DNA from: Paramacrobiotus metropolitanus
Taxonomy: Eukaryota > Tardigrada > Eutardigrada > Parachela > Macrobiotidae
Assembly (NCBI RefSeq): GCF_019649055.1
Contig: NW_026570221.1
Location: 3,658,001 to 3,722,000 of the forward strand
DNA length: 64,000 nucleotides
Reading direction: 5' to 3'
The position numbers were made by a program, and so were the translations under genes. This document shows, in pieces, positions 10,402-34,264 of the stretch. Under the pieces are notes generated by a model that did no database searches, was not told the DNA's origin, and worked only from the letters and a program-made list of their open reading frames with translations. How positions within the stretch are numbered: position 1 is the first letter of the stretch; the number at the start of each line of letters is the position of its first letter.

Positions 10402-13400
10402 ATGTCTCCGTGCTGGATAACAGGCACTTGCCTGTCACCGACGTGGTTGACGCTTCTTATTCTGCTGCAGCTTCACTGCTCCAACGGATGTTCCCTTCAG
10501 CAGCCGACGGCCGCCAACCGTGAGTACTGCGTAATTATCCGCAGGGAAAATATGTTTTCTCCTGGATTGCGGCGAGTGGTGCAATGGTTATTCTCTTCGG
10601 AACGCGTTCCCTGAAAACAGGCTCTCCGATTGCGCAACTGCGCCGGGTTTCTGGCTGAAATGCCGCTGTACGCATTTGTCGTCGAGTTAATTTAGTTGTC
10701 CAGTTCCGGTGCGCTAGATTCGAAAAACGTCTAATTTTTAAAATTATTACGAGGCCGGTGTGGCGAAAATAATAATGTTCGAAAATTTGTTGATTATTTT
10801 TTCATGGATTTTCTGGTGTATTTCGCAGGAAAACGTGCGTCGCTGGGCGTGGCGAGCGAAATTGGGCTTTTTCTCTGAATTCCGAGCTCGGAAAAAAAGG
10901 GAAATTTTCTTGGAATTTTATATGTTCTTGTCCATGCGGGCCGCTGGACGATTTGCCTTGATAGAAGATTTTTATCAATACTTATTTTTTCGGTTGAGTA
11001 ACTTCCATCTCATAAAATCAGGCTAAAAAAAGACACAAAAATTTTCAAAAAACCTAGCACTAATTTCCAGTATCCTGAATGCGTGATAATAATATATATG
11101 CATTAGTAAAGGAGCTGTCTACTGTAGTTCGACAATAATGATAATAATAATTGATAATAATAATGTTAATTATTAATTAAATAAAATACAATAAGTACGA
11201 TTGTGTCCGGAAATTGTCTCAGCCAGAGTCTCTGTGTTATTTTGCTGTACCTGCTTGTTTTTCTCCTTGAATCTGCTGTACCAATTTGTCGGAGACCGAT
11301 AGGTTTGAATAAGTACTTGAATTACAGAGTAATTCTTAAGTTGTTTCGAAATAAATTAAATTCGGAAATAAATAAATTAATCAATAATTAAACTCGGAAA
11401 AATCACCTTGAAATTTTTGGAAAATGCTAATGACGTCTGTAGAATTTTCGGGAACAAATCGCGCCGGGTTCCGCCGGTGTACAGAGTATCTGCGTAAAGA
11501 AGAGAATCACAGCTAACTGTCGGCGAAATTAGCGGTGCACCGGGTGTCTTATCAAAACAGGAAATAATAATTCGCATGAAAAGCGTATTTTTTCGGTAAA
11601 AATATCTCCATTTATTCGGCGGCCTTTTTTTCCCGCAGGCAATACTGCAATTTGTGTAGCTGTTTTTATTTGAAGAAGGTGTAAATGCTTTCATTAGAAC
11701 AAAATAAAAAAAAATTGCTGGCATGGTGTATGCGCTGGATGAAATATACAGGCGGCGCACTTCGCGACTTTTCGAAAAAATGGGAGTGTTTTATCTGTAT
11801 TTTTCAGCTTATGTTACTTATTATTTTTTGCTGCAACGCCGGCTGCAACAGATATGTCTTTTTTACTCGAGTTTTGTTATTTTGTCAGTGAATTTCCAGT
11901 TTAATTCACAGGAAACGTGTCGCTTCGAAGTGCGAGCAAAACCCAGCTTTTTTCAGAAAATTGACACGAACTGTAGGAACAACTCCTCCGGCACCTGGAT
12001 GCTACCCGACGATTTGCTTTAAAATAAGCTTTCTTCGTATGCATACTTCCGTTATTTTATCAATTTTTATGCATATGTTGAGTAACTGTCTATCTCCTAA
12101 AAATCAACTAAAAATGCATGAAATTTTCAACTAATCCAGAAACAACTTTCCTGTAAGCTGACAAATATCTCCATTAAAAGGAGTTGGCTACTGTAGTTAG
12201 ATAATTTGCACCGAGCGCGAAGCGCGAGGTGCTGCAATAAGTAATAAGTCTTCGTCAAGAGCATAAAATTTGTCTGACGCCACGAAGAGACGCCACGCCT
12301 TTCCAATTCCACAATCCCAGTACCATTTCCCAGTGGTGTTGGCGCTCGCGCTCGCGCTCGTGCAATAATGTGGTTAACAACCACCGCTAGTGATATCAAT
12401 AAAGAAAAAGAAAATACCGGAGGGGTACAGTTGACTGTGCAGCACTTGCTGGGCGCGATGGCGGCGTGCCGCTCCAGGATGGCCACGTCCGGCACGTACT
12501 TGGCCAGGTCCAACAGTTCCGCCCAGCTGTAGACGCCCTCCTCGGGCCCGTGCGGCGTGCCCAGCTCCTGGACGATGGAAAATGCTGATATAAATACGTA
12601 CCCACAGCCAAGCCGCTGTAAAATATTAGAAATCTTGAATTTTATTTTAAATCTTGGTTTCCGGTAATTTAAGATTATATAACTATAATCGAAAAGTGGC
12701 TGGGTAACGATGCATATAGCAATATTTCAGCAAAATTTCAAAAGCTTCTTCTAGAAATATATTTATTCTATATAAAGTGATAATAGATAAAAACACGATC
12801 GATTTGTATCCGGAAACTGCAGCTAGCACCGCCGCACCGCAGCATTAACCGCGCTCACTGTGGAGTCGGCAACGCGTAGTGACCGTGAAAGGAATAGCAG
12901 TAGGATTAGCCGGCACTACAGATAGTTGGATAAAGTTGGATAAAATAATACAAATAATTAGAAAAAATGGTAGGGTTTTGGGTGTTCTACCTTTTTAGCT
13001 AATAGCGGCCCCTCTGAACTGCGGCTTCGTGCACAACAAACGCAACCGTTTGGTTTCTCTTTATCCATAGCTTCGTATTCTTGGGAAGTACATTCGCCGT
13101 GAGGGCCTTTGTTGGAATTCAGTCAGTTTTGTTTGAGGCAGTTTGGAAATGAATTGAAACTTTACAATCAGAAATAACGATAAGGGGAAACAAATGAATA
13201 AAAAAATTATTTTTCCAATATTTTCGGTTGTAGAGTGTCAACAGAGATTGAAATACTGTGTACTGTCCCCTTGTGGCAGTGGGGCGCGCGCTGACGGACA
13301 GCCACAGTAGCTTGGCGACTGCCGAATTTATAGAGGAACGTGTTCCTAACGGAATAAGAAGACACGATGCAATTACAACCCTGCCAACAATTGAGCATGT

Positions 13401-14571
13401 AAAGATACGGGTAGAGCGATACTAGTGCGAAGGTGGCGCTTGAATGATGGCCACTGCACTACGTTCATCGTAATGCATAACTGCGCTTCGCAGTTGGATT
13501 GTCCTGTACTGCATCGACCGCTTTGTAGCCACCTTACGCCAGGCAGTTATAATTGTTCTCATTAAAATATCCGGTGTGCACCAACCCACCATCCAGCCAA
13601 ATGCATGTTACGTGTTTAAACAGTGTGGCGTGGGCGCCGTAGTACGGATTTACGCGTCACCCGTAATTAAATGTCTAATATTCGCTGTATTTACGAATGC
13701 TCAGTTTAGCGACAAGCTTTTACAACTGATTTGCACTTTAGTGAAGGACATGCTGGCGAAGGCCATGCCGCACCAGCAGGACGACCGCGCCGTATTCCCG
13801 GGCTTGGCGGTGAATAAATTCTTGACGGAATGCGTGATGTACCGGCCGTGTTTAGGGCAGGACGCGGCGTTTCACTGCCGCGTTCCGGCCGATGTCGACT
13901 GGCGCCAGGTGTCCTGGGTGCACCAACACTGGGCAGTATTCAAAGGAGGAAAGCCGCAGCCGTTGCCGGAGAGGGACACCACGGGACAGACCTACAGCTT
14001 CACCCGCGTCAACGACACCCTCACTATCTTCGTCCGCAACGTCACCATGCGCTCCGGCGGCCTCCTGCAGTGCGTCATCGACCCACCCTACATCCGGCAG
14101 CGCCGCATCCTGCAGCGCTTCCTCATTCTCCCGCTGATCACGCAGCGCCGCGACGTCTTTGCCGTGGCCGACGAGAGTAACGTGACGGCCATCGAGGGCG
14201 AGGAAGTCACGGTGCAGTGGCACATCCGGCTGCCGGTTCCCGAAGGCCTTCTCCTGAACCTGCCCAACCAGTTGATGTGGGTGCATCAGGGCCGTATCGT
14301 CCGCGGTCCTTGGGAAGCGCCGTACCGGCTCCCAATGCCCCCCGGCGAAGGACCGCGTGACGTCGAAGCTAACTACAATTTGTGCATCAACAGCCCCGGG
14401 CAGCTATTACAGGTGGAATTACACTTTCGAGCAGTCGCGCTGGCCGATGAAGGATCGGTCCAGTGCTGGTTCCGGCCCCACCTGGGCGTCCATGAGTGGA
14501 TTGTACAGACGAGGACGCTGATGGTTATTCCCAAGAACAGCACGCAGGAAAGCGGCGTTGATCCCGTATAG
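10402..14571 (+). CDS. Ig-A: secreted two-Ig-domain protein of an unnamed paralogous family
   Basis: Exons are 10402..10519 and 13742..14571 (948 nt, 315 residues). Exon 1 gives a hydrophobic leader (LTLLILLQLHC, about residues 15-25) and ends in the strong donor AACC|GTGAGT. The phase-1 intron joins C|TG to give LKDM. Ig-like domain 1 spans about residues 70-170: C85, W98, the F-strand-type stretch DTLTIFVRNVTMRSGGLLQC, and C150. Domain 2 spans about 184-300: W219 in MWVHQGRIVRGP, then ADEGSVQCWFRPH with C281. The expected first cysteine of domain 2 is W199. There are four N-glycosylation sequons (NDT, NVT, NVT, NST) and no membrane anchor, so it is predicted secreted. AG precedes the homologous frame upstream of the ATG, so a 5' UTR exon is possible. 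No named family was recognised; ligand and role are unknown. Paralogs: Ig-B, Ig-C and Ig-D. Confidence 0.7.
10740..12230 (+). repeat. Duplicated noncoding block inside the Ig-A intron
   Basis: Sequence around 10770-11130 recurs at about 11850-12205. Both copies have the order (G)GAAA(AC)GTG-CGTCGC...GCGAGC, then GAGTAACT...ATCTC, then AAAATTTTCAA..., then AAAGGAG(C/T)TG(T)CTACTGTAGTT. A related piece lies in the Ig-B intron near 29910. The repeat is diverged and noncoding. Confidence 0.45.
12213..12395 (+). repeat. Interspersed repeat, inverted copy at 39363-39548
   Basis: The block runs from GCACCGAGCGCGAAGCGCGAG through TAAGTCTTCGTCAAGAGCAT and CAATCCCAGTACCATTTCCCA to CAACCACCGCTAG. It matches the reverse complement of 39363..39548 along its length, including the GCTCGCGCTCG tract. 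No coding or tRNA-like head was seen. It is probably a short non-autonomous transposon. Confidence 0.55.
12421..12575 (-). pseudogene. ACSBG exon fragment, antisense in the Ig-A intron
   Basis: Read on the minus strand, this 155-bp piece matches 3060-3212 of the ACSBG first visible exon almost base for base. It encodes the GVYSWAELLDLAKYVPDVAI-type stretch followed by LERHAAIAPSKCCTV. It stops just before the ATP-binding motif and has no splice context. It is a captured or rearranged fragment, not a gene. Confidence 0.8.
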
Positions 14572-15572
14572 GATGGACTCAACGGTTGAGACGATAACAA
14601 CCCGCTTTGCTGGCGGAGTTGACAGTTTGTATATGATTATTGATTGGATTTCATGTTTTTGTAATGGCGGGTTAACTGGAAGTGATCGGGAATTGCGCCC
14701 GCTGATTTATGAAATTGCATAAATCATAAGAACATTCAGTTCACCATTTGCCTGTACTCGGAGTTCCTCGTCGGTGAGAACATCGTCGGAATAGAAACAA
14801 CTGTTTTTAACAAGTCTAGTTAAGTGGATCGCGAAGCAGCTTTTCACGCTTCGATCGCAACCTGAGTGTACCGGCAAATAACACGAGTATCAGTAGAAGT
14901 ATCGAACTGTTCGATAAATAAAATGAAATAAGCACAGAAAGGCTTGATAGAGCCGGTAGTGTTTATCAGGGGGCCGGCCAGAGGCACCCCCTCCGAGAAA
15001 TCTCATTTTTTGCTTGAAGACAGAGTAGCAGGGCAGTTAAAAAAATTCAGTTTCTTAGGCAATGGTCCAGTGAACGTGGCCAAAAACCAAATTAAGGAAG
15101 TCATATGCATTGGTTGTATAATACTTATGAGTTATCTAGATTGTTTCCATACTAAATATTCTTGTTTCGCCGGTGAAAATATGTGTTCCTGTCATGGTGT
15201 TGCCCATTAATATGGCTGATTGCCCCATCACTTTTCTGTTTTGTGTAACTGGCTTGGTAATGTGAAACGTTTGTTGTCTTTATCACTTATCGGCTTAATA
15301 TTTAGCACTTTCTCTAACATAAATGCTACAGTATTTTCACTATTTTGGGATGTTGTGTGTTGATGTGCATGTATTGTACGTTTTTACTGTTTACCTTCAT
15401 AAGCGGCAAGATGTCTTACTTAGAATGTTGGTATTGACACGTCAGTTATTCCAAATTAAAATCATTGCAAATCTGCAGAGAGACGGGTTAATAAACACTA
15501 TGCACGTACAGTATCGATCGCGCTTCATTTTCAAATCAGGAATTGTAAATAGCACGTCAAATAAGTGAATAA
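14572..15572. other. Intergenic region between convergent genes Ig-A and Ig-C
   Basis: This is about 1 kb with no supported gene. It holds the Ig-A poly(A) signal and otherwise unremarkable AT-rich sequence. Confidence 0.5.
14917..14922 (+). promoter_or_regulatory. Putative poly(A) signal of Ig-A
   Basis: AATAAA lies about 345 bp after the Ig-A stop codon, in the interval converging on the minus-strand Ig-C gene. Confidence 0.4.
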
Positions 15573-16477
15573 TTAAACGGGATCGGTATCTGCCATTAAA
15601 TGGCGCTTGCCGGTCTTGCGAGCCACCGACAGCTGTGTTTCCTGCATCACCCACTCGTCGATCTCCCGGTGCGGGCGGAATAAACACTGGATCCATCCTT
15701 CATCGGTCTTCCTGACGGGCCGCAGATGGTATTCAAGGCGCCATGCATTGCCGTGGATGTTGGGAGAGGGGTAATGGTAGAAGGGCTGGGGGACCAGACG
15801 CCGACGGGATTGGAACTGTCGGGCAGTAGTTACAGTGGGCGTAGTGGATACGGTGGGCACAGTGGTCACATTGGGCATTACCGCGCAGTACGGCGCTTCC
15901 GTGGGTCCTTTCACGATGCGGCCGTTGTGCCGCCACATCACGTGGTTGTCAATGTTGCTGTAGATATCCTCCGGCAGGGGTAGCCGGATGCTGCAGAAAA
16001 CGTAAACGACAGGCAGGCCTTCGGTGACGGTCAGTGGCGTTGGTTTGCTGGCGAAGACCTCATAGGCGTGCGTGATCATGGGCAGCAGCCGGAAACATTG
16101 CTCCAGGGGCGGCCGTTGCACCGGGAGCGTGATGCATTTTATCACGCCACTGGAGCGCAGATCGATGTGGTAGATGGTGAAGGTGAGGGTGTCATCTTTT
16201 GGTCGCCAGCGGATGGTGTAATTGTGACCTGAGGCGTTGGGCTCATCTGGCGCCGGCACAGCTTCCCTTGTATTATAAATATGTTTGCCCTGATACGTCA
16301 GGGTGACGCTGTTAACATAGTCTTTTTTGGGCGTCTGGCATGTGAATTCCACATTGTCCCCCAAACGGGGTCGACGCACCTCGCAGTCCGGCGTGTCGCG
16401 CATCGTGCTCAGCTCCACAAGACTTATCAAATCGTCTTCACGATAGTATGATAACTTCTCCGTTATCATGTCCTCCA
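15573..16477 (-). CDS. Ig-C: two-Ig-domain paralog, main exon (minus strand)
   Basis: This is the second, domain-bearing exon. Its acceptor TTGTAG|TGGAGGACATG lines up with those of Ig-A and Ig-B, giving L(E)DM after a phase-1 junction. It runs open for about 300 codons to the end ADTDPV. Domain 1 has DNVEFTC, DDTLTFTIYHIDLRSSGVIKC and a further C in LEQCFRLLPMITHAYEVF. Domain 2 has VVYVFCSIRLPLPEDIY, keeping the first cysteine lost in Ig-A and Ig-B, then HVMWRHNGRIVKGPTEAPY and KTDEGWIQCLFRPHREIDEW. A Thr/Val-rich insert (NVTTVPTVSTTPTVTTA) interrupts domain 2 and is absent from the other copies. The frame upstream of 16477 is intronic. A signal-peptide exon should lie further right; see 19406..19457. 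Confidence 0.7.
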
Positions 16478-16885
16478 CTACAATATTCAAAAGGAGCCGT
16501 TACCACTTGTTCACAAATCACAACCTTTCACTCCGTACATGGAATTTCCGAAATTATTATCTAGAAAATTTCAAAATTAGGAAGAAAATTGAAAATAGTT
16601 GAAAAAACGATTTCACAAATTAAAAAAACATTGGGGATTTATTGGGAAATTCCTAATAATTCAGAAATTAATTTGCAATTTTTTCAAAGTAATTTTTGTA
16701 ATAAATTGTAATCTTTTTCCAAATTTAAAAATTGATTCACGGATGAGATATTGCCGGAAATAACCCGGGAATTAATTTTCTGTCGATTGGCAAATGATTT
16801 TGACACGTACCGTACAAGTTTAGAAATTAATACTCTAAAGTTTGACTTGATTTGGACAATTAAACTGAAAAGTCATTAATAATTT

Positions 16886-18071: not shown

Positions 18072-18080
18072 TAATAATTT

Positions 18081-21000
18081 AGAGAGTATTCGGAAATAAA
18101 AAAATTCTGTTAGAAATATAGTAATTTGGAACTGTAAAGGTCAAATCAAAAACTATTTTAAAAAGTTGGAAAGTTTTCGAACCTAATTAAAAATTTCGAA
18201 GTGATTTTCAAATTACTTGGAAAATCAGTAAATGCTTTAATATTTCAGCAAATTACGCTGAATTTACCTGCAACAGGTTCAAATGAGTCGAAAATGATTT
18301 AAACAATAAACAGACCATTTATCATAATAAAATTATCAAGTAACAAAAAATTATGTAATTCGATCATTTCGAAAACTATGTGTAACTGGGTTTCGAAAAT
18401 TCATTGATTATTCAAATTAATTTATTAGTTTTTTTGGAAATCAATTCGGGAGCTCAAGTCTTTAATTACAGATTTTAGATTTGATTTCGAATTTTAGAAT
18501 AAACTGAAAATTTAATTTCTAACAAAAATAATAATCTGGGAATCTGGAAGACATCGTGGAAAAATAATTTCGAAAAGAAACTTCAAAATATTTTGGAAAT
18601 CAACAAGGAACGCAATTTGAAAATTATTATTTTGTAAATGGATTTCGGAAATGCGAAAGATAATTTTAAATTAAATTCCGAAATTTGGAAATAATCTAGA
18701 AAATAGCTGGCATATTTCTTATTTCTGTGAACATATGATTTTAGGTACCGGATAGAAATTTTCTTTTAGTAATTGGAAAATTGTTCCGGACTCCGGAAAT
18801 CATCGTGAGAAGTAATCCTAAATTTTCCTGACTATTCTCTAATTATTTGCTAAATCTTGGACCGGACGCCTTATTTTAGATACGCTCATACAGTTCACAG
18901 AGATAAAATTAACTGATGTTACGTTACTGATGGCTTACGGCTGGCTGTCGACCGTGAACTATGTGCTGCTGGCGCACATCCCGTACTCGATTGTATCCAC
19001 TGCAGCAGTCCGGCAACGGACAACAGAATGTAACCAAATAGGGGGGATGAACAGGGAAACATATCGTGACTCTCTTAATAAAGAAGAAATTAAAACGGCC
19101 GATTGGGAAAATAAATATTATAAATGAAGTGGCAGAATGTTGCCGAGTAAAAACTAAAAGCGAAGATGGCTAGATGGAGTTACGAGCGAGCTAGCTAGCG
19201 AGCCATCCCCCGACGACTGGAATATGGCCCATACATAAATAACGTTAAAATATTATGAAAGCGTAAGCACGTATATAAACGAGGGTCGCTCAAGGAGTTT
19301 TAGAAATCGATATGATAGAACATTCATAAAATTATGAACTAATTTTTTAAAAACTGTAGCATTCATAACTAGATCATAGGGCATGGCCGTGGCCATACCG
19401 CCTACGGTTGGCGGTTGGCAAGACTATGAACACAGCTAGGTAGAGCTGGTTATGCATTGATCACTGAAAACGGTTACTGCATTATTGGCCGATTTTCATG
19501 ACATCATTTTGAAAAAATAATCTGCACAGAACAGCATTGATTTTTTTCATGTGTAACAGCCTATTCTCTTTCCTGAAAGAGGACCATTTTATGCTAATGT
19601 TGCCAGCTGATTCCAGCGACTTTGCGTTGAGCACTCCGTTTTGACAAGTGTGCTCGAATTTTGGGATCATTTTTTTGAGTCTCCACTTTTGAAAAGTGTT
19701 CATGGTGAAAACGCTGATCGAGAATGATTCTCAAACAACCGCGAAGCAATAGCAGAGGGATCAAGCATTATTGAACGAAAGGTGTCGCGGATGTGCTGCA
19801 GCTCCTGGCTGATAAGTTATCAGTGATAACGCAGAAGAAAATGGATTTTGACACGGTATCATCCGTGTGGTGCAATATCGCGAAAATCCACAGAAAAGCA
19901 CCCCGTCCCCTGAATTATTTTTGTTCTTGGTCTCAAGTTAATGTATCGTTCCACGTTATTTTTCTTTGTTTACCTTAGTCCTTTATCTACTCAACACATT
20001 TTTTCGCTTGAAGAAATTCTTGCGTGGCAGAAATATAAAAAAATATGGAAAACTGATAAAAAATTCTCATGGGGAGACCTCTTTGTTTCCGTGTAATTTC
20101 GCACTGGATTCGTTTTGATAGTTATGGAATCGATTTTTGCAATGAATGTAGACTAAAGAAACATAATTTATGGAAACGAAGAACAAATGTTAATGCAGTG
20201 GAAAACGGCAGAGCGATTTCTAAAACTTGTTGAGCGACCCTCGGGTAATCGGATTGTTCTCTAGTCGCTAATCTACATCTGTTGGATGCCTGGCAGGAAA
20301 ACAGCATCGGCCTTGTTCACAATGGTATTCTTAGATTTACGGCGGCGGCATTTATGTTATTAATGGGGCATACTTCGATTAGCTGGTTGGAGTAAAGAAG
20401 TACAGCCGGAAATATCCATTTATCACATCGCACACATGTGATAAAGTGCTGTTGTGTTACGAGGTACAAACTGCAGTTTGCCGGCATAATTGTACATGCG
20501 CGGCAGAATTATCGGATCGCAGCAGAATCGGCGAGCGCGGCAGAATCGGCTAGGTTTATTGTGCAGTGGCTGTGTCGAATGCCAGTAGCACTACTCGTAC
20601 TTATGGTTAATGTTTTATCGCTTTTACGCTGAAAGAGGCAGTAAATCAAACGGAGTAGTGTATTTTGTATAGGAATAATTGCTACGAATTCGGATTAATG
20701 CCAAGCATTATGCATTATCTGCTTCAATTAGCAAAAGAAGGAAAACAGTTAATGCGCCGTTTAATGCGCCGGACTCGTTCATTTCCGATATGGCCGCCAT
20801 TTACGCCGGATATTCAAAATAAAACTTTTTTATTTTTTTAAATATTAACATTTATATATATATAATTTAAATACTTTTATCGTATGATTCCATTTTATTT
20901 ATTATTTTTATGACTAATTTCGAGCCAACATTTCATCGTTTTATGTAAAACATTATAGCCAATATATAAAATAATAGTAAAATTCATTTTATTTAAAATC

Positions 21001-21131
21001 CATTATTCTATGCAATTAGCTTTTGAAATTTTGCTAGAATAACTTTTTATGCAGCCCTTATTCGGTCACTTTTTAATCAGCATACAAAGTAATGGAAAAT
21101 TAAATTAATTATTATTCTTGATATCTCACAG
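18081..21131. other. AT-rich intergenic sequence, nothing recognised apart from the candidate Ig-C exon
   Basis: About 3 kb of AT-rich DNA. A short frame at 18930-19127 (+) begins with a hydrophobic stretch but has no recognisable continuation. A GCGAGCTAGCTAGCGAGC motif occurs near 19183. Nothing else is supported. Confidence 0.4.
19406..19457 (-). other. Candidate first exon of Ig-C
   Basis: On the minus strand an ATG at 19457 opens MHNQLYLAVFIVLPTAN and ends GCCAACC|GTAGGC. This resembles the exon 1 end of Ig-A (GCCAACC|GTGAGT) and has the required phase 1. Joined to the main exon it would give about 318 residues. The leader is short and the donor weak, so this is tentative. Confidence 0.3.
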
Positions 21132-22275
21132 CGGCTTGGCAGTAGCAGTACTACGTATTCTATGGAATCCCTTGTGCACACGTTCGGCCACCTGGACCGG
21201 CAGCGGGGATCCTTCAATCTGACCTTTACGTATCGGCTGGACTCGGATGTGGTCACGGACTCTTATTTTCAGCACTTTCATCCCAATGTGATGAACGAGC
21301 AACAGCTGGATGAGCTGTTAACCAAGAAGGCAGGCTTCGCCGTGACCTTTGTCTCCAACTGCCACTGGATTCCCAGTCGACGGGATGTGTACGTGAAGCA
21401 GCTGGCCAACTATTACCATGTGGATATTTACGGGAAATGCGGGACCAAGCAGTGCAGCACCGATACTACGGAAATTTGTGATCAGCTCGTGGCTGATTGC
21501 AAGTTTTACCTGGCTTTTGAAACAGGTAAAAGCATCACAGCTCATCTGCATCACTGAAAACTTTTTAGCAACAGCAAACGAACTATTTAAAGGATTCAGA
21601 GCCAAATTCATGTACATCCATGGGAGCGTTCGCTGTCGTACACTACCAAACACTTTTTTGCTTTGCTTTATAATATTTTGTAGCCAAAAGATTTGTATAT
21701 GTAGGCGTGAAATTCACTTGCGCGCGCAGCATCCGCTTGGAAAGTTATGGGTTTCCAGAATTTAAAACAGTTCAAATGCATTCAGGTGTACCAAAAGTGT
21801 CATCATAATCCGATCTTCAAATTGTGCTCGTAAATGCAAGTATACATGATGATCGTTATTACACCGAACCAGAGCTCTACCATTTGTTTCAAATTTTAAA
21901 ATAATTTTTAAAAGTTTTGAAACTCACTTAAATTTTGGAAAAAAATCTAGAGTATTGGTCCGGCATAAAAACGATCTTTATACTAAAGTACATTTTTTTG
22001 CAAAATTTTGAGGAGATCGGTTTATAAAGAGGCTTTTGGTACGCCTGAATGCATTAAAAACTTTCTGGAACTTCACCCATAACATTTCAACCGGTTGTTA
22101 GTCGCGCAAACGGATTTCACGCCTACGTATTCAAATCTTTTGGCTACAAAATATCATAAAGCAATGCACAGAAGTTCGGTGGTGGAGGGACAGGGGCTGG
22201 TGCCGCACACCGCTGACCCAGGCTGAGCAGTGGATGAAGAACCCGGAGATTCCTCTCCTGGAGCCCGGTGTATGA
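21132..22275 (+). pseudogene. Alpha-1,3-fucosyltransferase duplicate lacking the C-terminal exon
   Basis: An exon from 21132 (acceptor CTCACAG) encodes the central GT10 region: YSMES, LTFTYRLDSDVV, then FVSNCHWIPSRRDVYVKQL, VDIYGKCGTKQC and CKFYLAFE. At the donor, copy 1 reads GAGAACAG|GT but this copy reads GAAACAG|GT. One base is missing, which shifts the frame. The intron then runs into a foldback element. At about 22178 it jumps directly into the last 95 bp of the terminal exon (GTGGTGGAGGGACAGGGG to CCTCTCCTGGAGCCCGGTGTATGA). About 700 bp including the DYVTEK donor-site motif are deleted. Earlier exons were not found upstream. The gene cannot encode an active enzyme. Confidence 0.85.
21584..22178. 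mobile_element. Palindromic foldback element, copy B (right end deleted)
   Basis: Homologous to copy A in the equivalent intron. The left terminus is eroded, the palindromic arms are recognisable (GCTTTGCTTTATAATATTTTGTAGCC mirrored by GGCTACAAAATATCATAAAGC), and the right terminus is replaced by fucosyltransferase exon sequence. The inherited position shows that it predates the cassette duplication. Confidence 0.65.
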
Positions 22276-22289
22276 CCAGAAACCACGGG

Positions 22290-24048
22290 GATCCGTTATG
22301 TATTTCCTAGAAATTCGTCTAACTGTCGGGGCGTTGTACTGAACTGACCTGAACTGACGATGATGTATCACTGCACTGGCTGGGCTTACTCTGTAAGCAA
22401 TATTCGACTAGATTGCCCACAGCTTCTTGCTTGTTCGTCACATCTTGGTTGAAGTGGTAAATGTGTCCGATTGTGCTGCGGACGGTTATGCCTTGTGTCC
22501 AATTGTACAACTACACCGGCTTTGGTTGTTTTTACTTTTAAGTAAAAACGTACAACGTGCGACAGGACGTGACGTTAACACTGAAGCGATGACAGTGTAG
22601 AAAGATCACATAGACAGAAGCAGTTCGATGCGCCTAAAACATTCATTACTTTTAAAAATCGCTCCAGTACCTAGTGAAAAGAATGCATCGGAAGGGGACT
22701 ACAGGTACACTACATACAGTATTATGCGCACGGGTAACCAGTTCGATCACCTTCATTAATGATGACGCTTGTTTGTCGCCAACGGAGGTTACACACTTGG
22801 CCGAATTACCGATCATTTATTTAATGCCGCTTCTGTTTCTGGTACGGTTGAAAATGTTGTTTTCTTCCACCGAAACTGATTCTTGATATTGTTATCGCGT
22901 TTTTGGAAATAAAAGTGCTTCACAACCAATTCGAGGAGTCTGGCGTAAGCTGCGGTATCGGTATTTGTCGCTGTGTTGACGCGCTTTAAATTACGGGACA
23001 AGCTCTGGTCATAGTCCGCAATGTGCGTTTACATTGTACAAATTAAAGTGCGATTTATAAAGGCTGATCAGTAATTACTCAATGCAAAGTGACAATGTAA
23101 AGCAATTACCTATAAAATTATGTATCTTCAGGACGTGCGATTATGCGCGTAATTAACTGAAGCAAGCAGAGAAAGTACGCGAAGGGAGTAATCGAACATT
23201 GAGAAAAGTTGAAAGGGGTATAAAGCTAAATGCCTATCACAAATCACATCCATTGTGAAAAGATAAAATAACGATGAACATCGCGGGAAAATTATATGAA
23301 GGCATGCTTGCGGTTATGGTTGTCGCTGTCATTAATGCGTTATCACCTTCATTGATGACGCTTGCCTATCGCCAACGGAAGTTACACACTTGCCCGAGTT
23401 ACCGATCACTGCACAATAAATTACTATAAAAAAACCGCTGAAATAGGGAAAGTGGGCAACCGTACTGTCGTTTTCGTTCACTTGGTATGGTCTGATAAGA
23501 ATACGGCATTCAACCCGCTATCGTTCAAGGCAACGTAATAACGGGACCATGGCGGGTATCAGTGTAAATCAAGAGAGCTTTGGGATAATTTTCATAGAGT
23601 GTTATCAGAAAAATTATGTCGGCCATTTTATCTTGTGGGGTTGACTATGAGCATGCGCATGCGCACCCTGTTTAAACACGTAACATGCATTTGGCTGGTT
23701 GGCCTTTTAATGGACACGCCAAATGTTTTAATGTCATGGATCTGATATTGGTTCACTTTCGACTTTATGGCCATTTGCCTTTTACAGCAAAGCTTCAAGA
23801 AGATCGGGTAATAGGCTACTTGCCAGACTTTTGGTACTCAACAATAAATATTAACTTTTCGCCCGTTTTAATTTGCGATTTCTCGCACACGGTTTCCAGA
23901 ACAATTTATACAAATCCTTTAACTTTAGAATGACATAACGTACTGTAAAAATGTGGTCCGGAGTGCGCGAAAGCGAAAGTTTTAGTGTATGAATCCCATT
24001 TGTGATCCCATGTACTGGGCATTTTCCTTAAAGCGTCTGTTTCTGCAG
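22290..24048. other. Noncoding; duplicated FucT flank and eroded ACSBG interval
   Basis: 22300-23232 matches 1500-2152, with an extra block near 22360-22545 and a local repeat: GATGACGCTTG...CCAACGGA(G/A)GTTACACACTTG at 22760 and again at 23355. From 23235 to 24048 no ACSBG exon is detectable, although the last exon follows at 24049. About 40 bp at 23660-23700 recur inverted at 13595-13635. Confidence 0.5.
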
Positions 24049-24316
24049 GATTAAGGAGAACATCGGCCAGGACGTGTGCACGGTAACGGAGGCCGTCGGG
24101 CTGACCAGCCTGCAGAAGGTCATCGAGAAGCGCATGGCGCTGGTCAACAAACGTGCCACCAGTCGCGCCCAGTGCGTGCAGAAATTTAAGCTCCTCCCCG
24201 AGGACTTCAGCATCCCCGGCGGCGAGCTGGGTCCCACGCTGAAGTTGAAGCGCAACGTCGTCGCCGCCAAGTACGGCGCCCTCATCGAGCAGTTCTACGA
24301 CGACACCGACTCCTGA
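24049..24316 (+). pseudogene. Isolated last exon of ACSBG (cassette copy 2)
   Basis: After the acceptor TTTCTGCAG the exon reads IKENIGQDVCTVTEAVGLTS and continues to the C-terminal GELGPTLKLKR and FYDDTDS, ending TGA 24314-24316. It is nearly identical to 5897..6164. Coding changes include N to C in VNTV and SD to GA near the C-terminus. The five preceding exons are absent. It retains a clean acceptor and open frame, but alone it lacks the ATP-binding core. Confidence 0.8.
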
Positions 24317-25215: not shown

Positions 25216-25338
25216 TTTTCAACTGTGAGTAAAATTACTAAAAAATATTACCTTCCTCGAGGCATACCTGCCACGCGGTGTATAACAAAGGTTTGGGACT
25301 CTACACTTACAATTACACAAGTATCTTCTTCGAGTCTG

Positions 25339-25490
25339 GTCATGGACCAAAGTTGGGTCATGGGCCCTAGTTTGGTCATGGACCCAAGTTGGGTCATGGG
25401 CCCTAGTTTGGTCATGGACCCAAGTTGGGTCATGGGCCCTAGTTTGGTCATGGACCCAAGTTGGGTCATGGGCCCAAGTGTGGCCGCGCG
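25339..25490 (+). repeat. 36-bp minisatellite, about 4 units, with decayed units to ~25800
   Basis: The unit starts GTCATGGACCCAAGTTGGGT and continues CATGGGCCCTAGTTTG. Four nearly identical units start at 25339. Diverged units continue to about 25800 (CCAAGTTTGGTC, GGCCATAGGACC). All frames stay open across perfect units because 36 is a multiple of three, so long open frames here are not evidence of a gene. Confidence 0.8.
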
Positions 25491-28059: not shown

Positions 28060-29465
28060 CGCCATTTTGAGGATTCTCATTTTTCTGTCATAGATGCACT
28101 ATGCCCATGGTATAATGTTATTACATATTTATTCAGTATCTCTAACCGAGATTTCTTCATAATACTCAAAACAATTTCCATAAAAAACCAAAGTAGGAAC
28201 AGGGAGTGGACCGGGTGCAATGCACAACAACCGCTCTTCCACGTGCACAAATTTCAGAGATTTGAATTCCAACATTTTTATTTTGTTTTAATGACTACAG
28301 AGTCCCAGTGCCAACCAAATCAGAAGCACGTTGTGCGGTCCGCATCTATTGCTGTAGCGCACCACATGGGTGGTGGTGTTAGTGACCGGTGACCATAATA
28401 TGCAATCGTATACGTACAATCGTTTACAGTTCATACTGCTTTCTCGAAGTGAGCCGAACCTGTCATCTGGCGGCCACAGTCCGGCCCGCCCACAGAACCT
28501 CACAATTACCTTCGCAGAATTAAGCCATGGGCATGCCGTCGCCTTCGCATTGTTTTTGAAAAGCGAACCACGGCTGCGCGTCAGTGTTTGGCTTTTCAGT
28601 TTTCGGCCAATAACGAGTCGTACGCATTAGAAACCCAGGAATTATATTACCTAATACCGATGACAAATTCACAGTGGCAATAAATGCGTTACCGAAATCA
28701 AAATGCAACTAAATTTGGGAAGCTTAAAATATAGAAAGTAAGGGAAATAACGGGAAAAAATTTTACCTGGAAGTAAAAATAAAAAAAAATGGGAAAAAGA
28801 ATAAAATTTTAAAAATCCAGTTGAAGGTAAATTAACCTGTCGGCTAATGACGTGGTGGTCCAACAAACAACCGGCTCCATCCCGCGCAGGATCGCCGGGA
28901 TGACGGGACCCGGATGTTCCGGATGAGGGCGGCGCGCCCACCTTTAATTTAGTGAGATTTCAATTTTGCAAAATTAACGCAGATACTCGATGAATGTACC
29001 GTTTAAACCTCAATTAAGCCAAAACAGCTACTACAGTAGACGAAGCATAAACATAATTGTAGAAATTAACTGGGGATTCTTTAAACTGAATTAAACAAAT
29101 TTTAATAAATTAGGGGAAACTAATTTTCAGTAGTGGGCCTAGTGGCTGAACTGGACGGAAACGACAATCTGCAAATGATTGAGGCGCTGCCTCGCTGGAT
29201 TCTGCGCTGATCCGTTGATGCCAATATCCGTTGATGCAGGGGATAGCCGCCCCATTGGTCAGCTCACTACGCCCCTAGGTCTTTCTTCTTGGTGCCTGGA
29301 CCAGCGGCACGTGCGGTTGGTGACGCTGACAGCCTGCTGTCGTGGGTTATTGGTTATTAATTTGAGGAAACAACCTCAATTGTCTAGTTTAATTAACTAA
29401 GCCGTTATTTACTATAGCTTGGTCTCTCTGCTGTATTTTTGAGATCTAACCATTTTCCTCCAGGT
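28060..29465. other. Noncoding flank of cassette copy 2
   Basis: Matches segments of 6290-10390 in cassette copy 1 (see that entry). It carries one copy of the block that is tandemly repeated in copy 1. No gene is supported. Confidence 0.55.
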
Positions 29466-31211
29466 ATGGTTATTGTGCTGGCCGCCGCTGCGATGTCTCC
29501 CTGCTGGAAAACAGGTAGTCTAGCATGCCTCTGGTGGTGTTTCTTGGTGCTGCTGCACTGCTCGGCGGGATGTCCCTCATCATCTCCCTACTCGGCACCC
29601 GTCAACCGTGAGTACTGCGTCATTATCAAAAAGACAAATAGATTTTCCCCTAATTTTTCGCCGATCTGTGGGATGAGTATTCTTTTCGGAACAAGGCACT
29701 CCGACTGCCCACCTGCGTCAGGTCTCTGGCTAAAATGCAGCTGTACGCATTTGTGTCGTTTTCAACGCGCTGTACGTCGTGTTAATTTATTTGATCAAGG
29801 ATGCTTGATAGAAAGATTAATAACTTTAAAAATATGTCACAGGGCCGGTGTGTCGAAGCAAAAATAAGTTAGGAGTGTCATTATTTTGCAATGAATTTGG
29901 AGTTGATTTCAGGGGAAGGTGTTGCTTGGCGTTGCGAGGGAAATTCGAACTTTTATTTTTATTTTTTTGTTAAAGGGACATGTTCAAACTCCTCCTGGTT
30001 TTTTAAAACAAGTTAGCATAAAGTCAGACCGTAACATAAGGTCAGTTTAAAACAACGTCTGTGTGACTGTGTCTGAATCTAACTGAGGCAGACGCAGGAG
30101 CGGCGCAGTGAATGGCGTCTAAGCAGGGCGCAATCCTGTGGAAACCGAGAAACGGCTGAAAAAGGCACCGATGGGAGTTCCGAACCCCGGCAAAGTCGTT
30201 AGATCCGCGTAGACAGTACCACTGCACCACGGCGCAATACGTTGAAATCATTTGAAACACTTTGTCGCTGTACGTGAGCTGCTTCTCGCCTCACAGGAGA
30301 ATGGCGATAGTGTTTTGAATAAATACCGTGCCCCAAATGAGATAGACAGACGTAATAAAATGAAACTGACAGACCTGTTACTTGATAGTGAGCGACATGC
30401 TGGCGGATGCGTTGCTGAATAACCGACAGGAAGACCGCATCGTGCTGACCGGACTGGCTCCGAGCGACACCCCACCGGACAGCGTGGTGTCCCGACCGCG
30501 TTTGGGGGAGGACGCGGTGTTTCACTGCAGCGTCCCCGTCGACGTCGACTGGCGCCACGTGGCCTGGCTGCACCAGGACTGGTCCGTCTTCGAAGCAGGA
30601 GAGCCGCAGGCATTGCGGGACGGCGACACCACGGGACAGACCTACGACTTCACCCGCGTTAATCACACTCTGATTTTCGTCGTCCGCAACGTCACTATGC
30701 GTTCCGGCGGCAACGTGCGCTGCGTCATCGAGCCCCAGGGCCCCGAGTATAATACGGAGCGCCGCGTCCTGCAGCGCTTCCTGTTGCTGCCGCTGATCAC
30801 GCAGCGCAGCGAGGTCTTCGCCGCGCCCGACGCCCCGTCGTGACCGCCATCGAGGGCGAGGCTGTCGCGGTGCAGTTTAGCATCCGGCTGCCCGTACCGG
30901 AGGACGTCTTCTTCGAACTGCGCAACCATTTGATCTGGGTCCACAATGGTCGCGTCGTGGAGGGTCCGTGGGAGGCTGTCTACCGGGGTCTGGTGCCCAG
31001 AACGGAAGGACCGCGTGACGTTGAGCCGTACTACTTGGGAGGGTCGGCCAACAGCCCGGGCCAGCTGGAACACGTTAGACTCTACTTCCGGGCCGTCAAA
31101 CTGGCCGATGAAGGATACATCCAGTGCTGGTTCCGGCCGCATCAGTACCTCCATGAATGGGTCGTGCAGACGACGACGCTGATGGTTACTCCCAAGAACA
31201 GCACCCTGTAG
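29466..31211 (+). pseudogene. Ig-B: two-Ig-domain paralog with a frameshift
   Basis: Exon 1 is 29466..29607, with an alternative start at 29493 matching Ig-A. It encodes the leader LWWCFLVLLHCSAGC and the donor GTCAACC|GTGAGT. Exon 2 is 30389..31211, joined in phase 1 to give LSDM. Domain 1 is intact (VFHCSVPVDVDW, RVNHTLIFVVRNVTMRSGG, VRCVIEP). Near 30832-30843 one base is missing relative to Ig-A (GCCCCGTC then GTGACC), producing TGA. Domain 2 continues in the next frame (VAVQFSIRLPVPED, LIWVHNGRVVEGP, ADEGYIQCWFRPHQYLHEW) to a stop at 31211. The first cysteine of domain 2 is Phe. The strong conservation of both halves leaves open a recent lesion, a sequencing error, or translation of domain 1 alone. 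Confidence 0.75.
30164..30235 (-). tRNA. tRNA-Arg(UCU)-like sequence, probably a pseudogene or SINE head
   Basis: Read on the minus strand from 30235: GCGCCGTGGTGCAGTGGTA (A-box-like), an anticodon-loop region GATCTAA, then GGGGTTCGGAACTCC (B-box-like). The 3' CGGTGC pairs with the 5' GCGCCG (one G-U). Five Ts follow directly, a possible Pol III terminator. Only about three of five anticodon-stem pairs form. It lies inside the Ig-B intron, antisense. Confidence 0.45.
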
Positions 31212-32126
31212 AGCAGCATTGTGCAAGATCCGGCAGGGGATCATTCTGCTGTCGCCGTCGATGCGCTGTAAAAATTTTACCAAAAACTAACCGCAATGCC
31301 CGCTTTCCTGACGGAGATGACCTTTCTGTCTAATTCTCATGGGCTTTTTTTCATTTCCTATTGGCGGAAAGTAATTAAGATTATTCCCGCCTCTTTATTT
31401 GTATAATACTACGAAAGTGCATTCGTTTCTGGCGGGCACTGCATGACCGAAGCGTAGCAGGATTATATGATAGATTATTCACATTAGGTCGTTGGCGATA
31501 TTAGTCTATCATACGATGTTTACAATTATCGATTAGATTAGAGTTCCAAATACTATATTTCTGAGTACGGCATTTCCGGGCGGTTTTACTGGTTATTGAT
31601 TTTTGCTGTATTTCGTAAAATCCATTTTACTAACGTGGGCGTTACGAAGTACATGAAAATCTATAACCGGTAAAACCGCCCGGACAGATGAACATTTCGT
31701 TGTTCCTGAACACTGCGTAAATTTTGCCCGGGCAATTTCTTTAGCTGTGGGAGTATGTAATATTATTCATGCTGGACTTCTATTTCGAATCTCAGACAAC
31801 TGATGAGTTTCTTACCGCCAAACAAACCTGTCAACTTTTCGCTAACAATGCTTCTCATTTCGCAGCCGGTGATTTTAATCAAAAGTAATTTTCCTATTAC
31901 TGTATAAGGATTAATTTTCGATGAATTTGTTTTATCTTTCGTCTTGGTGATGCATTACTGTCAGAGTGAAGTTCACATCAGATTTTGAATTATTTTACAT
32001 AATTCCGTAAATTAAACAGGTTGTGCAATGAGTAATCACTAATCAGATACCAGAAGCAAGACAAAGCCAGTACGAGGTTAAGAATCATGCGATATGTTAA
32101 GTTGCCAATAAGTTCACGAAGACACA
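31212..32126. other. Noncoding; small palindrome and a repeat shared with 35.9 kb
   Basis: 31415-31470 (GTGCATTCGTTTCTGGCGGGCACTGCAT...GCGTAGCAGGA) recurs at about 35860-35915. A small inverted-repeat element is listed separately. No gene is supported. Confidence 0.45.
31575..31684. mobile_element. 110-bp palindromic MITE
   Basis: TCCGGGCGGTTTTACTGGTTAT at the left mirrors ATAACCGGTAAAACCGCCCGGA at the right, with further pairing inward (GATTTT / AAAATC and TTCGT / ACGAA). It has no coding capacity. Confidence 0.6.
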
Positions 32127-32621
32127 TTAGTAATTTTCGTCAGCATGGCAGCGAGGCGCAATTTCGTGGTCGTGGTTACCATGCTTCGTCGATTTGAACT
32201 TTGTTCTTTTCCGCTTACCGTTTGGGAAGAAGTCGGTGAATTTCCACGTAGAGCAGTCCTGTTTATAGCCGATTTTGATGGTGCAGATAGTTGGGAAAAC
32301 AGTGGAATATCCAGATTTCATGGTGGTGTCGGCAGAGGCATTTGCGTTAATGTGGCATTGGATTCCGACAGACTTGACGTATTTAAAAGCAGAATTACGG
32401 TCTAAACTGGAGGTATTGCAGTCCGCGGCATACAGGTTTTTGTCCCCAGGAATATTCGAGGAAGCTTCTTCGTACTGTTCACGTTTCTCATAAGATTGTT
32501 GAAGATATTCGCAAATATCTTTCGCCAGTTGTGTGCAGAGGGCAGTCAATATGTCAGTAACTTTTTGGACATAATCGGTAAAATCCGGTTGTAAATCGTA
32601 AGTAATGTCGCGATTCGACAT
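32127..32621 (-). CDS. Hypothetical 164-aa protein, unrecognised
   Basis: One uninterrupted minus-strand frame begins MSNRDITYDLQPDFTDYVQK and ends APRCHADENY. The first half is helical in composition, with a charged EYLQQSYEKREQYEEASS stretch. The second half has spaced cysteines (AADC, GIQC, PTIC, QDC, PRC) and a basic GKRKRTKFKSTKHG. There is no signal peptide or membrane segment. It lies between Ig-B and Ig-D on the opposite strand. Length and composition are better than chance for this region, but no family is recognised and a missing intron or partner exon is possible. Confidence 0.4.
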   Translation of the reverse strand: MSNRDITYDLQPDFTDYVQKVTDILTALCTQLAKDICEYLQQSYEKREQYEEASSNIPGDKNLYAADCNTSSLDRNSAFKYVKSVGIQCHINANASADTTMKSGYSTVFPTICTIKIGYKQDCSTWKFTDFFPNGKRKRTKFKSTKHGNHDHEIAPRCHADENY

Positions 32622-32796
32622 GATTTTAATAAAACATAAGGTGTAGTTTTAAAAAGGTCACGGTAGCATACGGTAATCGTGTAACTGTGCAGTAAAGCAA
32701 ACGCCCGGTCGGGTTTCAATGGTTCACGTACGTGAGTAAAAGTGCTAAATTTATTGATTGATCTCGACGTGAGCAAAAGTGAAGTGAATTATTACT

Positions 32797-32873
32797 GACT
32801 AATAAATTATTACTCATAGAATGAGAGAAAAATTATAAACCAGGAACTCATGTCACTTTCGTTACAACGGGAA
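32797..32873 (+). repeat. Direct repeat left of Ig-D (pair at 35090)
   Basis: ACTAATAAATTATTACTCAT through AGGAACTCATGTCACTTTCG is repeated almost exactly at 35090..35166. The two copies bracket Ig-D and foldback copy C. Confidence 0.75.
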
Positions 32874-33177
32874 ATCTACGGCGATTAACACAACTACGAA
32901 TAGACTCACGACTTTCATTTATTTTTCCCAACTGTCACCTTGACAACAAAAGTGTTGATGAAATATTCTACTAAGCGGCACCACCGTACGGTACGGAAAC
33001 CATACCTCTCTAAGCCGAAACCGTTTACTGATTTATGCTTTCACATTTACTGCAGCGGGGTTTGCCGGTGCAGCCTTCGTGTTTTCTGCTTATTACTCCT
33101 ATGCTTAGCAAAAATTTACCAGTTCTGATGATTTCACTTTAATAAAATCAACCTGTTCAAAAAACCAGGGCAGAACG

Positions 33178-34264
33178 ATGGCTTGTGCCGCGATAAGCGA
33201 TTTCGCGTTGTTTTTCTTGGCTTCTGCGGGTATTTTACTCGTGAACGCTGTGCCAACAAAACGGGAGACTAGCCTTTCCGGAATGCTGGGCGCACTGGAT
33301 CGTCTTACGGCGGCACTGGAGACATGCTGGAACTACACCGGTATAAGACGACAAACTGGATTCCGATTAGTGCCCATCAGGATTGTCTCTCCGCCAACAT
33401 AACACAATATTATGTGCATTTACTTCTGCTACGTAATCTGAACGCTAAACTGCCAACTAACATCTTCTCGTATCCACAGCGTGGAATCTAATCATCCAAG
33501 CGGAGCAGGCACACCGGGGGAAGAATCCTGTCTGGCTGCCGCAGCTCTCGAGGCCCCCTCCCGACCCTAAAGGTCACGTGCACCGTCCCTACCTGGACGA
33601 GACGATCAGCCTGCCGTGTGCGGTTGGATCAAGTCAGCCGAATGATGTGGTGTGGAAACACAAAGGTCACCAGTTACCCCTTAACCAGACGACGGGAGCC
33701 GTTCGCCACAGCCGCGCTCATGACAACGCCCTGATCCTGCACAACGTCACCTACGCGGCGTGGGGCAAGTTCGAGTGCCACCAGCGCTGTCCGAACTCCG
33801 GATTAGGAACGTTCTGCCTGCAAGCAGAACACTGGGTCTTCCCCAAACCTCTTCCCGATGTCCACGAGGTGTACGCGCAGTTAATGCCGGAGGTCACTGT
33901 GCCGCGATACATGCCGTTCGCGGTGACCTGTCAGCTGGATTTCCCCTGTGGTCCCAATCCGGCGCAGCACTTCATCTGGCGCTACCGCGGAATGTACCTG
34001 GCCTGGCCGCCGGGTCACTACCTGCAGCAGACGGCCTGTATCGAAAAAGACCGGCAGACGCTGATGATCCACACCACCTACTCCGAGATAACGGGCGCCG
34101 ACGGCCGCCTGCACTGCGCCTCCACGCTGACGCTGCACGTGCCCTGGCCGAACCACACCGGAGCCAAGCTGGCGTGCTGGGCACGCTCCGACACCACGCA
34201 GCAGGAGTGGTACATCCTCACCACTCCCGTCCGGTTTAATGGGAGTTTACCCTTCCCCGTATAA
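33178..34264 (+). CDS. Ig-D: secreted two-Ig-domain protein
   Basis: Exons 33178..33340 and 33480..34264 are joined by a 139-bp phase-1 intron (donor ACACCG|GTATAA, acceptor TATCCACAG), giving 315 residues. The leader is FALFFLASAGILLVNAVP. Domain 1: C101, W113 (VVWKHKGHQLPLNQTTG), NALILHNVTYAAWGKFEC with C154. Domain 2: FAVTCQLDFPCGP with C205, W221, LHCASTLTLHV with C267, and LACWARSDTTQQEW with C287. N-glycosylation sites include NQT, NVT, NHT and NGS. It has an intact first cysteine in domain 2, unlike Ig-A and Ig-B, and is the most diverged of the four. No transmembrane segment is present. It shares gene structure, exact length and the terminal -PV with its paralogs. Function unknown. 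Confidence 0.75.

Follow-up and report, generated by a model that had tools for sequence, protein, structure and literature searches.

A leader-bearing two-immunoglobulin-domain family of several hundred loci in the tardigrade Paramacrobiotus metropolitanus, with a possible role in soluble recognition

Results

The window, a stretch of 64,000 nucleotides of the P. metropolitanus genome (contig NW_026570221.1, positions 3,658,001 to 3,722,000), carries four copies of a gene with two immunoglobulin (Ig) domains, Ig-A to Ig-D, and the remains of a fifth. CAHS genes in the assembly fit a tardigrade source. A nematode origin was rejected, as the nematode cuticle collagen model PF01484 gave no match, in a search that by itself does not prove absence; COX1 gave no match in the assembly either. 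In Ig-A, exon 1 (10402..10519, plus strand) encodes a leader with the predicted signal peptide MSPCWITGTCLSPTWLTLLILLQLHCSNGC..., which is 92% identical in the duplicate L001, and exon 2 (13742..14571, plus strand) encodes a helix-like N-terminal segment followed by the two Ig domains and the stop. The phase-1 intron between them begins with GT at 10520 and ends with the acceptor TTTAG at 13741, and the product is exactly 315 amino acids long, with -DPV at its C terminus. Ig-B lies on the minus strand, with a leader exon (18939..19062, MFPCSSPLFGYILLSVAGLLQWIQSSTGC...), a phase-1 intron and a second exon (15573..16477) for two Ig domains and the stop, giving 342 amino acids that also end in -DPV; its leader is a candidate, assigned by open reading frame, hydrophobicity and phase-1 donor in the window sequence. 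The leader exon of Ig-C (29493..29607, plus strand, MSPCWKTGSLACLWWCFLVLLHCSAGC...) is 50% identical to that of Ig-A and has the shared donor context C/GTGAGT, and its second exon (30389..31211, plus strand) has the two Ig domains split over two reading frames by a frameshift near 30830, which marks either a pseudogene or a residual long-read error. Exon 1 of Ig-D (33178..33340, plus strand) encodes a putative signal peptide and a conserved ...DRLTAALETCWNYT segment, 47-48% identical in the paralogues L002 and L003, and after a phase-1 intron exon 2 (33480..34264, plus strand) encodes two Ig domains and the stop, so that the product again has exactly 315 amino acids, ending in -FPV. The fifth copy is a domain 1 fragment on the minus strand (42286..42591), 35% identical to residues 15-100 of Ig-A (E 1.5e-5). 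All splice sites were placed by sequence and by conservation between paralogues.

The original prediction had read Ig-A, Ig-B and Ig-D as genes in which a phase-1 intron separates the leader exon from one exon that carries both Ig domains and runs to the stop, which holds to the base, and had located the decayed fifth copy correctly at 42.4 kb. The common length of 315 residues and the -PV ends of Ig-A and Ig-D also stand, but the -PV end ascribed to Ig-C was wrong: its domain 2 frame ends in -NSTL, and it is Ig-B that shares the -PV end. The motif RSxGxxxC, proposed as common to domain 1, is present in Ig-A, Ig-B and Ig-C and is replaced by AAWGKFEC in Ig-D. Ig-A and Ig-D are only 23% identical and belong to separate subfamilies; their equal length therefore looks like a coincidence.

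The family belongs to the immunoglobulin superfamily, as judged from its Cys-Trp-Cys core, curated models and fold. Among 87 sequences, the core residues C, W and C are conserved at 0.98, 0.93 and 0.99 in domain 1 and at 0.93, 0.94 and 0.93 in domain 2. In domain 2 of Ig-A, Trp replaces the first Cys. The Pfam model Ig_3 was matched by 69 of 84 members at E <=0.01, a threshold at which Ig-A taken by itself gave no Ig_3 match; the window copies score under the Pfam cut-offs, and what they match are generic Ig models. Neither a fibrinogen nor a chitin-binding model was among the seven families matched by the 84 members, for which exon 2 only was scanned. An array of alternative Ig exons was also absent from the window copies, in which each of Ig-A, Ig-B and Ig-D combines a leader of its own with one two-Ig exon and its own stop.

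The best of five structure models of Ig-A (pLDDT 74.5, pTM 0.71; the other four, pLDDT 56-60) shows two tandem Ig domains, each a two-sheet sandwich, while the model of Ig-D was poor (pLDDT 61.3, pTM 0.46). The modelled fold of Ig-A is generically like those of recognition and adhesion proteins such as SYG-1, Rst D1-D2 and IgLON proteins, with a Foldseek E of 1.2e-10 against SYG-1 D1-D2 and a Z of 12.6 over 175-177 residues against IgLON5/NEGR1. Identity to these adhesion proteins is 14% and the rmsd 5-8 A, and antibody Fabs reach equal scores, so that the fold matches establish no kinship and no domain geometry. The 60 of 739 profile-search matches listed include titin (6.8e-23), SYG-2 (6.2e-13) and DIP-theta (3.1e-11), and Dpr2 (6.1e-7), zig-4 (PDB 8tk9, 5.9e-7) and NEGR1 stand in the same list; within it titin and FGFR3 outscore the wiring proteins, and antibodies rank beside them. 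Single copies searched against PDB sequences reached at best E 0.61 (Ig-A) and 0.021 (Ig-D), mostly with generic Ig chains. Kinship with a named Ig family was not supported, the Pfam and profile matches being generic, and the confident match to a known single-copy Ig family that would have spoken against a new family did not appear.

Seven protein searches of the species' own genome located about 373 loci of the family on 112 contigs, a figure that includes fragments. At E <=0.01 the Ig-A query alone matched 125 pieces genome-wide and the Ig-D query 136, and the resemblance among the window copies is therefore not due to chance. Excerpts of the assembly paper give 24,903 predicted genes (PMC8277472), which corresponds to a density of about 1.5 family loci per 100 predicted genes. 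Loci without a stop in any matched row number 222 of the 359 counted, and each of the other 137 contains one or more rows with a stop; the loci are clustered, 250 of the 359 having a neighbour from the family within 50 kb, against a random expectation of 19%. Distant subfamilies, with 12-24% identity to Ig-A, have in common with it the C-W-C cores and a domain 2 signature, ECWFRPH...HEWIVQ. Leaders are conserved in the paralogues L001-L003, and leaders with a phase-1 donor are kept in two more subfamilies (L086/L087 and L092/L093); for L088/L089 no leader exon turned up within 2.4 kb, and the leader candidate shared by L090/L091 sits in a region about 95% alike over its whole length, which makes its conservation uninformative. 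The tail after the last motif has a median of 10 amino acids in the 75 of 87 copies in which it could be tested; no membrane anchor was seen in these 75, in which tails of at least 15 amino acids are not anchor-like. Each copy has about four N-glycosylation sequons. These results support the earlier view of a multigene family whose members are built to one plan, lie in both orientations, are in part decayed and include a fairly recent duplication, at about 75 times the size suggested by the five visible copies.

The segment that holds Ig-A (9501..14750, plus strand) has a duplicate of opposite orientation in L001 (G000:C1, about 3.632-3.636 Mb). Between the two, the intron differs at 143 of 2289 aligned sites (0.06) and exon 2 at 94 of 830, with an exon 2 dS of 0.26. 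The excess of exon 2 synonymous divergence over intron divergence indicates the boundary of a conversion tract, and on the same comparison we rejected the idea that Ig-A exon 2 diverged fast mainly under strong positive selection. A compatibility test indicated recombination in two groups of copies (0 of 500 permutations for gR and 1 of 500 for gW) and did not indicate it in two others (140 of 500 for gA and 101 of 500 for gD). The view that recombination or gene conversion reshuffles blocks of the coding exon between copies is thus supported, albeit less strongly.

Omega was 0.17-0.56 in all 64 paralogue pairs above 60% identity, copies for which were picked mostly for long open frames, and these values denote purifying selection. 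The relaxed dN/dS near 1 that would have counted against Ig-A and Ig-D was absent, with omega of 0.32 for Ig-A and its duplicate and 0.20 for Ig-D and L002. Positive selection at individual sites is clear in one of the four groups: in gA, M8 against M8a gave p 5e-4 and M2a against M1a p 0.016. It is borderline in gR after trimming of intron codons (p 0.039 and 0.026) and unsupported in gD (p 0.087 and 0.33) and in gW, where the fit of M8 fell below that of the nested M8a, an optimiser failure that we read as no support. These p values are rough, as branch lengths were fixed and the number of evaluations was limited, and recombination can inflate such site tests. The untrimmed M2a/M8 signal of gR was discarded because it came largely from codons L10-S15, which lie upstream of the splice site and are intron. 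Hypervariable loops of the antibody kind were not seen in gA (mean omega 0.32 in loops and 0.39 in strands, p 0.14), where, unlike in antibody V domains, domain 2 is more variable than domain 1 (p 0.037).

Discussion

Judged from sequence, the P. metropolitanus genome holds a family of several hundred loci with a signal-peptide leader, a helix-like segment and two Ig domains, with no membrane anchor in the exons read, and the purifying selection among the copies compared makes the intact ones look functional. Among the results that weigh against an immune or recognition role are the lack of antibody-like hypervariable loops in gA and the fact that positive selection is clear in only one of the four groups. 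The reading that we favour, tentatively and somewhat short of calling it probable, is that these loci encode soluble recognition proteins in a family reshuffled by recombination, with immune use the likeliest. The proteins would be secreted to the body-cavity fluid or to the outer or gut surfaces of the animal; the strongly conserved F-G hairpin of domain 2 (ECWFRPH...HEWIVQ) might serve all copies for docking or dimerisation, and the ligand of each copy would be set by its variable parts. The likeliest use would be the recognition of microbes or other non-self, from a repertoire that would be held in the germ line and not produced by splicing.

Recognition of self or of a partner, either between gametes or mates or in neural and cell-contact wiring of the kind mediated by Dpr/DIP, IgLON and SYG/Rst proteins, is unlikely. 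The closest folds do include SYG-1 and Rst D1-D2 and the IgLON proteins, and SYG-2, NEGR1, DIP, Dpr2 and zig-4 are among the profile matches listed; these matches are, however, generic, with titin and FGFR3 scoring better and antibodies level in the same list, and several hundred loci are far above the size of known wiring families. In addition, the main text of the paper on the sex-biased transcriptome of P. metropolitanus (PMC11191345) contains neither "immunoglobulin" nor "immun", although such genes could be present there unnamed.

The proteins could also be feeding effectors, released from salivary glands or midgut on prey or food and diversified in a feeding arms race. Strain TYO was fed an alga and a rotifer, according to excerpts of the assembly paper (PMC8277472). 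Leader-bearing, multicopy and diverged genes would fit such effectors, but the low omega argues against this reading. Ig domains would also be unusual in that role, and we regard this explanation as quite unlikely. Very unlikely is that the copies were multiplied for dosage and supply structural or storage proteins to the egg shell, the cuticle or the extracellular matrix: the leaders, the many copies and the sequons would suit such proteins, but genes kept for dosage tend to stay alike, unlike the distant subfamilies described above. That most loci are decaying, non-functional duplicates around a few working genes is highly improbable, since the loci with stops, the frameshifted Ig-C and the decayed fifth copy are set against low omega in every pair compared (although the copies were chosen largely because their open frames are long), a majority of stop-free loci and leaders and splice signals retained where found, and some frameshifts may be residual nanopore assembly errors, to judge from excerpts of PMC8277472.

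No previous account of the family came to light in the open-licence literature on tardigrades and immunoglobulin, as covered by titles and the starts of abstracts, and the general literature on secreted two-Ig multigene families yielded nothing relevant. By term counts, the word immunoglobulin is missing from the main texts of PMC5531438, PMC8277472 and PMC11191345. It is possible, if doubtful as a whole, that several hundred soluble recognition proteins, each with two Ig domains, make up a germ-line repertoire in tardigrades that has so far gone unnoticed and that duplication and gene conversion have diversified. If true, this would mean that a large Ig-based humoral recognition system was invented independently in tardigrades. 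Tardigrade biology has focused on desiccation and radiation, and to our knowledge there is little information on their recognition of microbes, mates or food; a leader-bearing Ig family of about 373 loci, counting fragments, would rank among the largest such expansions in invertebrates that we know of. Since the species is in culture and its sequence reads are deposited (PRJDB7223), the family is open to direct tests.

Several known systems invite comparison with the family favoured here as a source of soluble recognition proteins. Snail FREPs, VCBPs, hemolin and Dscam carry Ig domains and are regarded as recognition molecules of a soluble or diversified kind, from which the tardigrade family differs in having two Ig domains only. 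The C-terminal fibrinogen domain that follows the Ig part in FREPs and the chitin-binding domain that follows the V domains in VCBPs are both missing in the tardigrade exons scanned, and the arrays of alternative Ig exons within one gene that characterize Dscam do not occur in the window copies. Dpr/DIP, IgLON and SYG/Rst proteins have a tandem Ig ectodomain of similar fold to the Ig-A model, but they are membrane-bound or GPI-linked as a rule, unlike the tardigrade proteins, for which no anchor was found. The zig (zwei Ig) proteins of Caenorhabditis elegans are likewise small two-Ig proteins, and zig-4 is among the profile matches listed, where it is weaker than many other Ig proteins in the 60 of 739 and is not specific. 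The zig proteins are mostly secreted, and their family is a handful of genes, as against several hundred loci in the tardigrade.

Results

The two-Ig-domain genes of the window belong to a large and clustered family in Paramacrobiotus metropolitanus. Five protein searches of its assembly (169,799,020 bases in 533 contigs, the contig of the window having 4,484,719), two at E up to 0.01 and three at E up to 0.001, gave 642 typed rows, which merge, according to the distance allowed, into 351–368 loci spread over 112 contigs. With merging at 1 kb there are 359 loci; 222 of them have no stop in any row, and 250 lie within 50 kb of another, versus 19% at random placement on one line. Two extra queries (E up to 1e-4) added only 9 and 5 places, and the search is therefore near saturation for queries of such kinds. 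The resulting 373 loci are a lower bound in that only the best candidates were scored. The count takes in fragments, and some other Ig genes may be present among the few weakest rows.

The original prediction of four genes in the window stood except for two details. Ig-A (plus strand; exons of 118 and 830 nt), Ig-D (plus strand; 163 and 785 nt), and Ig-B (minus strand; 124 and 905 nt) have phase-1 introns and encode 315, 315, and 342 aa, respectively, and Ig-C (plus strand) has a matching leader at 29493–29607 and a second exon from 30389, with its frame broken near 30830. The -PV end assigned to Ig-C belongs instead to Ig-B, and the RSxGxxxC motif, given as shared, is absent from Ig-D. The decayed fifth copy, a fragment of domain 1, is indeed present at 42286–42591 on the minus strand. 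The splice sites are predicted from sequence and from conservation between paralogues: Ig-A, Ig-B, and Ig-C have C|GT[GA]AG as a common donor context, with the acceptor lying just ahead of TGxxxGACATG, and the leader of Ig-A is 92% identical in its duplicate, L001, and that of Ig-D 47–48% identical in its paralogues L002 and L003. Two more subfamilies (L086/L087 and L092/L093) likewise have upstream leader exons that carry phase-1 donors and are conserved between paralogues. Of two others, L088/L089 gave no leader within 2.4 kb, and L090/L091 share a candidate in a stretch some 95% alike along its whole length, where conservation is uninformative.

Exon 2 encodes a helix-like segment and a D...LP motif, followed by Ig 1, a VF-containing linker, and finally Ig 2, which closes with ECWFRP[HD]...EWxVQ. 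In an alignment of 84 copies, where distant subfamilies have only 12–24% identity to Ig-A, the sole invariant column is a Gly of domain 1, located four positions ahead of its second Cys. Conservation is at least 90% for the Cys-Trp-Cys residues of each domain, for the Phe in the VF between the domains, and for the Trp in HEW; a separate alignment of 87 copies agrees. The first disulfide Cys of domain 2 is retained in 93% of these 87 copies and is Trp in Ig-A (14218–14220) and its duplicate and Phe in Ig-C. Of the 87 copies, 75 were matched by the motif pattern (12 are unmatched), and in these the tail past the closing motif has a median length of 10 aa and a maximum of 31 aa. Tails shorter than 15 aa are too short to hold an anchor, and among these 75 copies none of the longer ones is anchor-like, as judged from exon 2, beyond which an extra 3′ exon may lie.

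From exon 2 of Ig-A and five rows of the window only, AlphaFold2 produced a best model (pLDDT 74.5, pTM 0.71; the other four, 56–60) composed of a short helix and two Ig domains. Its top PDB match by Foldseek was SYG-1 D1–D2 (E 1.2e-10, query TM 0.43, rmsd 7.6), followed by PTP-delta and then many antibodies, and IgLON, nectin-like proteins, and Fabs were equal by VIA-align (Z 11.9–12.6). The poor model of Ig-D (pLDDT 61.3) matched RAGE, IL-1 receptor relatives, Rst, and SYG-1. Among the best 60 of 739 matches of the family profile, titin was at the top, followed by FGFR3, contactin, Robo, SYG-2, NEGR1, DIP, zig-4, and Dpr2. Modeled fold and profile thus say that the predicted proteins are members of the Ig superfamily, and nothing narrower.

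The frames are under constraint. Omega was 0.17–0.56 in 64 of 64 paralogue pairs more than 60% identical, which are mostly copies picked for long frames and in some cases include a few upstream intron codons. Under codon models, mean omega was 0.275, 0.29, 0.225, and 0.26 in four groups of copies, gA (near Ig-A; n = 11), gR (n = 5), gD (n = 6), and gW (n = 12), and the neutral class under M1a held 24–29% of sites. Site tests presume a single tree, and recombination can inflate their support. They pointed to positive selection in gA (p 5e-4 for M8 versus M8a; 0.016 for M2a versus M1a), were borderline in gR after trimming of intron codons (p 0.039 and 0.026), and gave no support in gD (p 0.087 and 0.33, respectively) or gW. 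The most variable sites of gA are largely in domain 2, in and around strands D and E, which are gappy in the alignment, and are not specially in loops.

The Ig-A segment has its opposite-orientation duplicate, L001, about 22–26 kb before the window. The two differ at 143 of 2289 aligned intron sites (6.2%; 942 gap columns), 54 of 899 in the 5′ flank, 4 of 118 in the leader exon, 31 of 171 in the 3′ flank, and 94 of 830 in exon 2 (11.3%; 10, 18, 8, 2.7, 18, and 14% in 150-base windows). For exon 2, dS is 0.26, dN 0.083, and omega 0.32. Its synonymous sites thus show about fourfold the divergence of the intron, and the 3′ flank is diverged as well. This mosaic is best read as conversion or recombination with another paralogue, a putative donor, in an event that would either have entered the exon or have homogenized the intron. 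Shuffling between copies is supported in part by a site-compatibility permutation test, which gave 0/500 for gR and 1/500 for gW, and null results for gA (140/500) and gD (101/500).

Other features were noticed as well; the gene pieces and exons among them are on the plus strand unless stated. A GT10 fucosyltransferase-like piece is at 21093–21557 (Glyco_transf_10, E 5.5e-13), and by eye a putative second one is at 1043–1474. Positions 1–600 are copied at ~21.66–22.09 kb with 79% identity, which suggests a duplicated segment. A repeat element at 1–600 and ~21658–22168 has at least 83 matches genome-wide, with the best 40 of 1115 candidates scored, and many are overlapping plus/minus pairs, i.e., it is partly palindromic. 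Bubblegum-type acyl-CoA synthetase exons (2997–5452 and 5850–6161), a second copy of a downstream exon (24032–24316), and a decayed fragment of another exon inside the Ig-A intron (12127–12726, minus strand) were recognized by eye, and the intron part with the fragment is also in L001. Serpin gene pieces occupy 36869–37959 (Pfam Serpin, E 4.6e-10 for 36869–37249; the rest by eye), and a non-LTR-type reverse transcriptase ORF is at 49367–50455 (minus strand; by eye). Adjoining an Ig-D paralogue, a 1025-aa open frame (L005:2625–5699), by eye coiled-coil, rich in proline/glutamine, and with a gag-like end, looks like a retroelement.

Discussion

Contamination is a concern because the culture was fed with a rotifer and an alga (PMC8277472). 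The published assembly of Paramacrobiotus sp. TYO (P. metropolitanus), nanopore-based and Illumina-polished, has 170,483,395 bases in 684 scaffolds, the longest of 4,484,941, with 43.46% GC and 24,903 predicted genes (PMC8277472), and PMC11191345 likewise puts the genome at 170 Mbp; the mean GC of the window is 43.9%. A search with a eutardigrade core of CAHS, a tardigrade gene family, found 18 pieces in the assembly, at up to 72% identity over most of the query, and none on the contig of the window. Five of the 12 CAHS-bearing contigs examined (C4, C9, C60, C73, and C75) also carry family loci, and one of these, L022, begins 3.8 kb away from where a CAHS gene begins (G000:C73:118482-122713). 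The family is therefore the tardigrade's own and not food contamination.

The repertoire of leader-bearing two-Ig proteins is large and clustered, combines constrained frames with decaying copies, and shows signs of shuffling, a picture that fits soluble recognition proteins. Recognition of non-self is, tentatively, the likeliest use of the family; self or partner recognition, feeding effectors, and structural roles are the rival readings. The sequence shows the gene structure, the size of the family, the Ig fold, and the constraint on the frames, and it partly supports shuffling; secretion in vivo, a function for the domain-2 hairpin, and a ligand of whatever kind are inferred.

Literature searches of PMC papers, both tardigrade-directed and general, found no paper describing the family, and three articles on tardigrade genomes or transcriptomes (PMC11191345, PMC5531438, and PMC8277472) do not use the word immunoglobulin in their main text. 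The sole paper found on a tardigrade Ig-like domain places one each in ferritin-like metabolite phosphatases (PMC11616004). To our knowledge, no description exists so far of this family, of how large it is, or of its host. Diversified secreted Ig proteins are known in other phyla.
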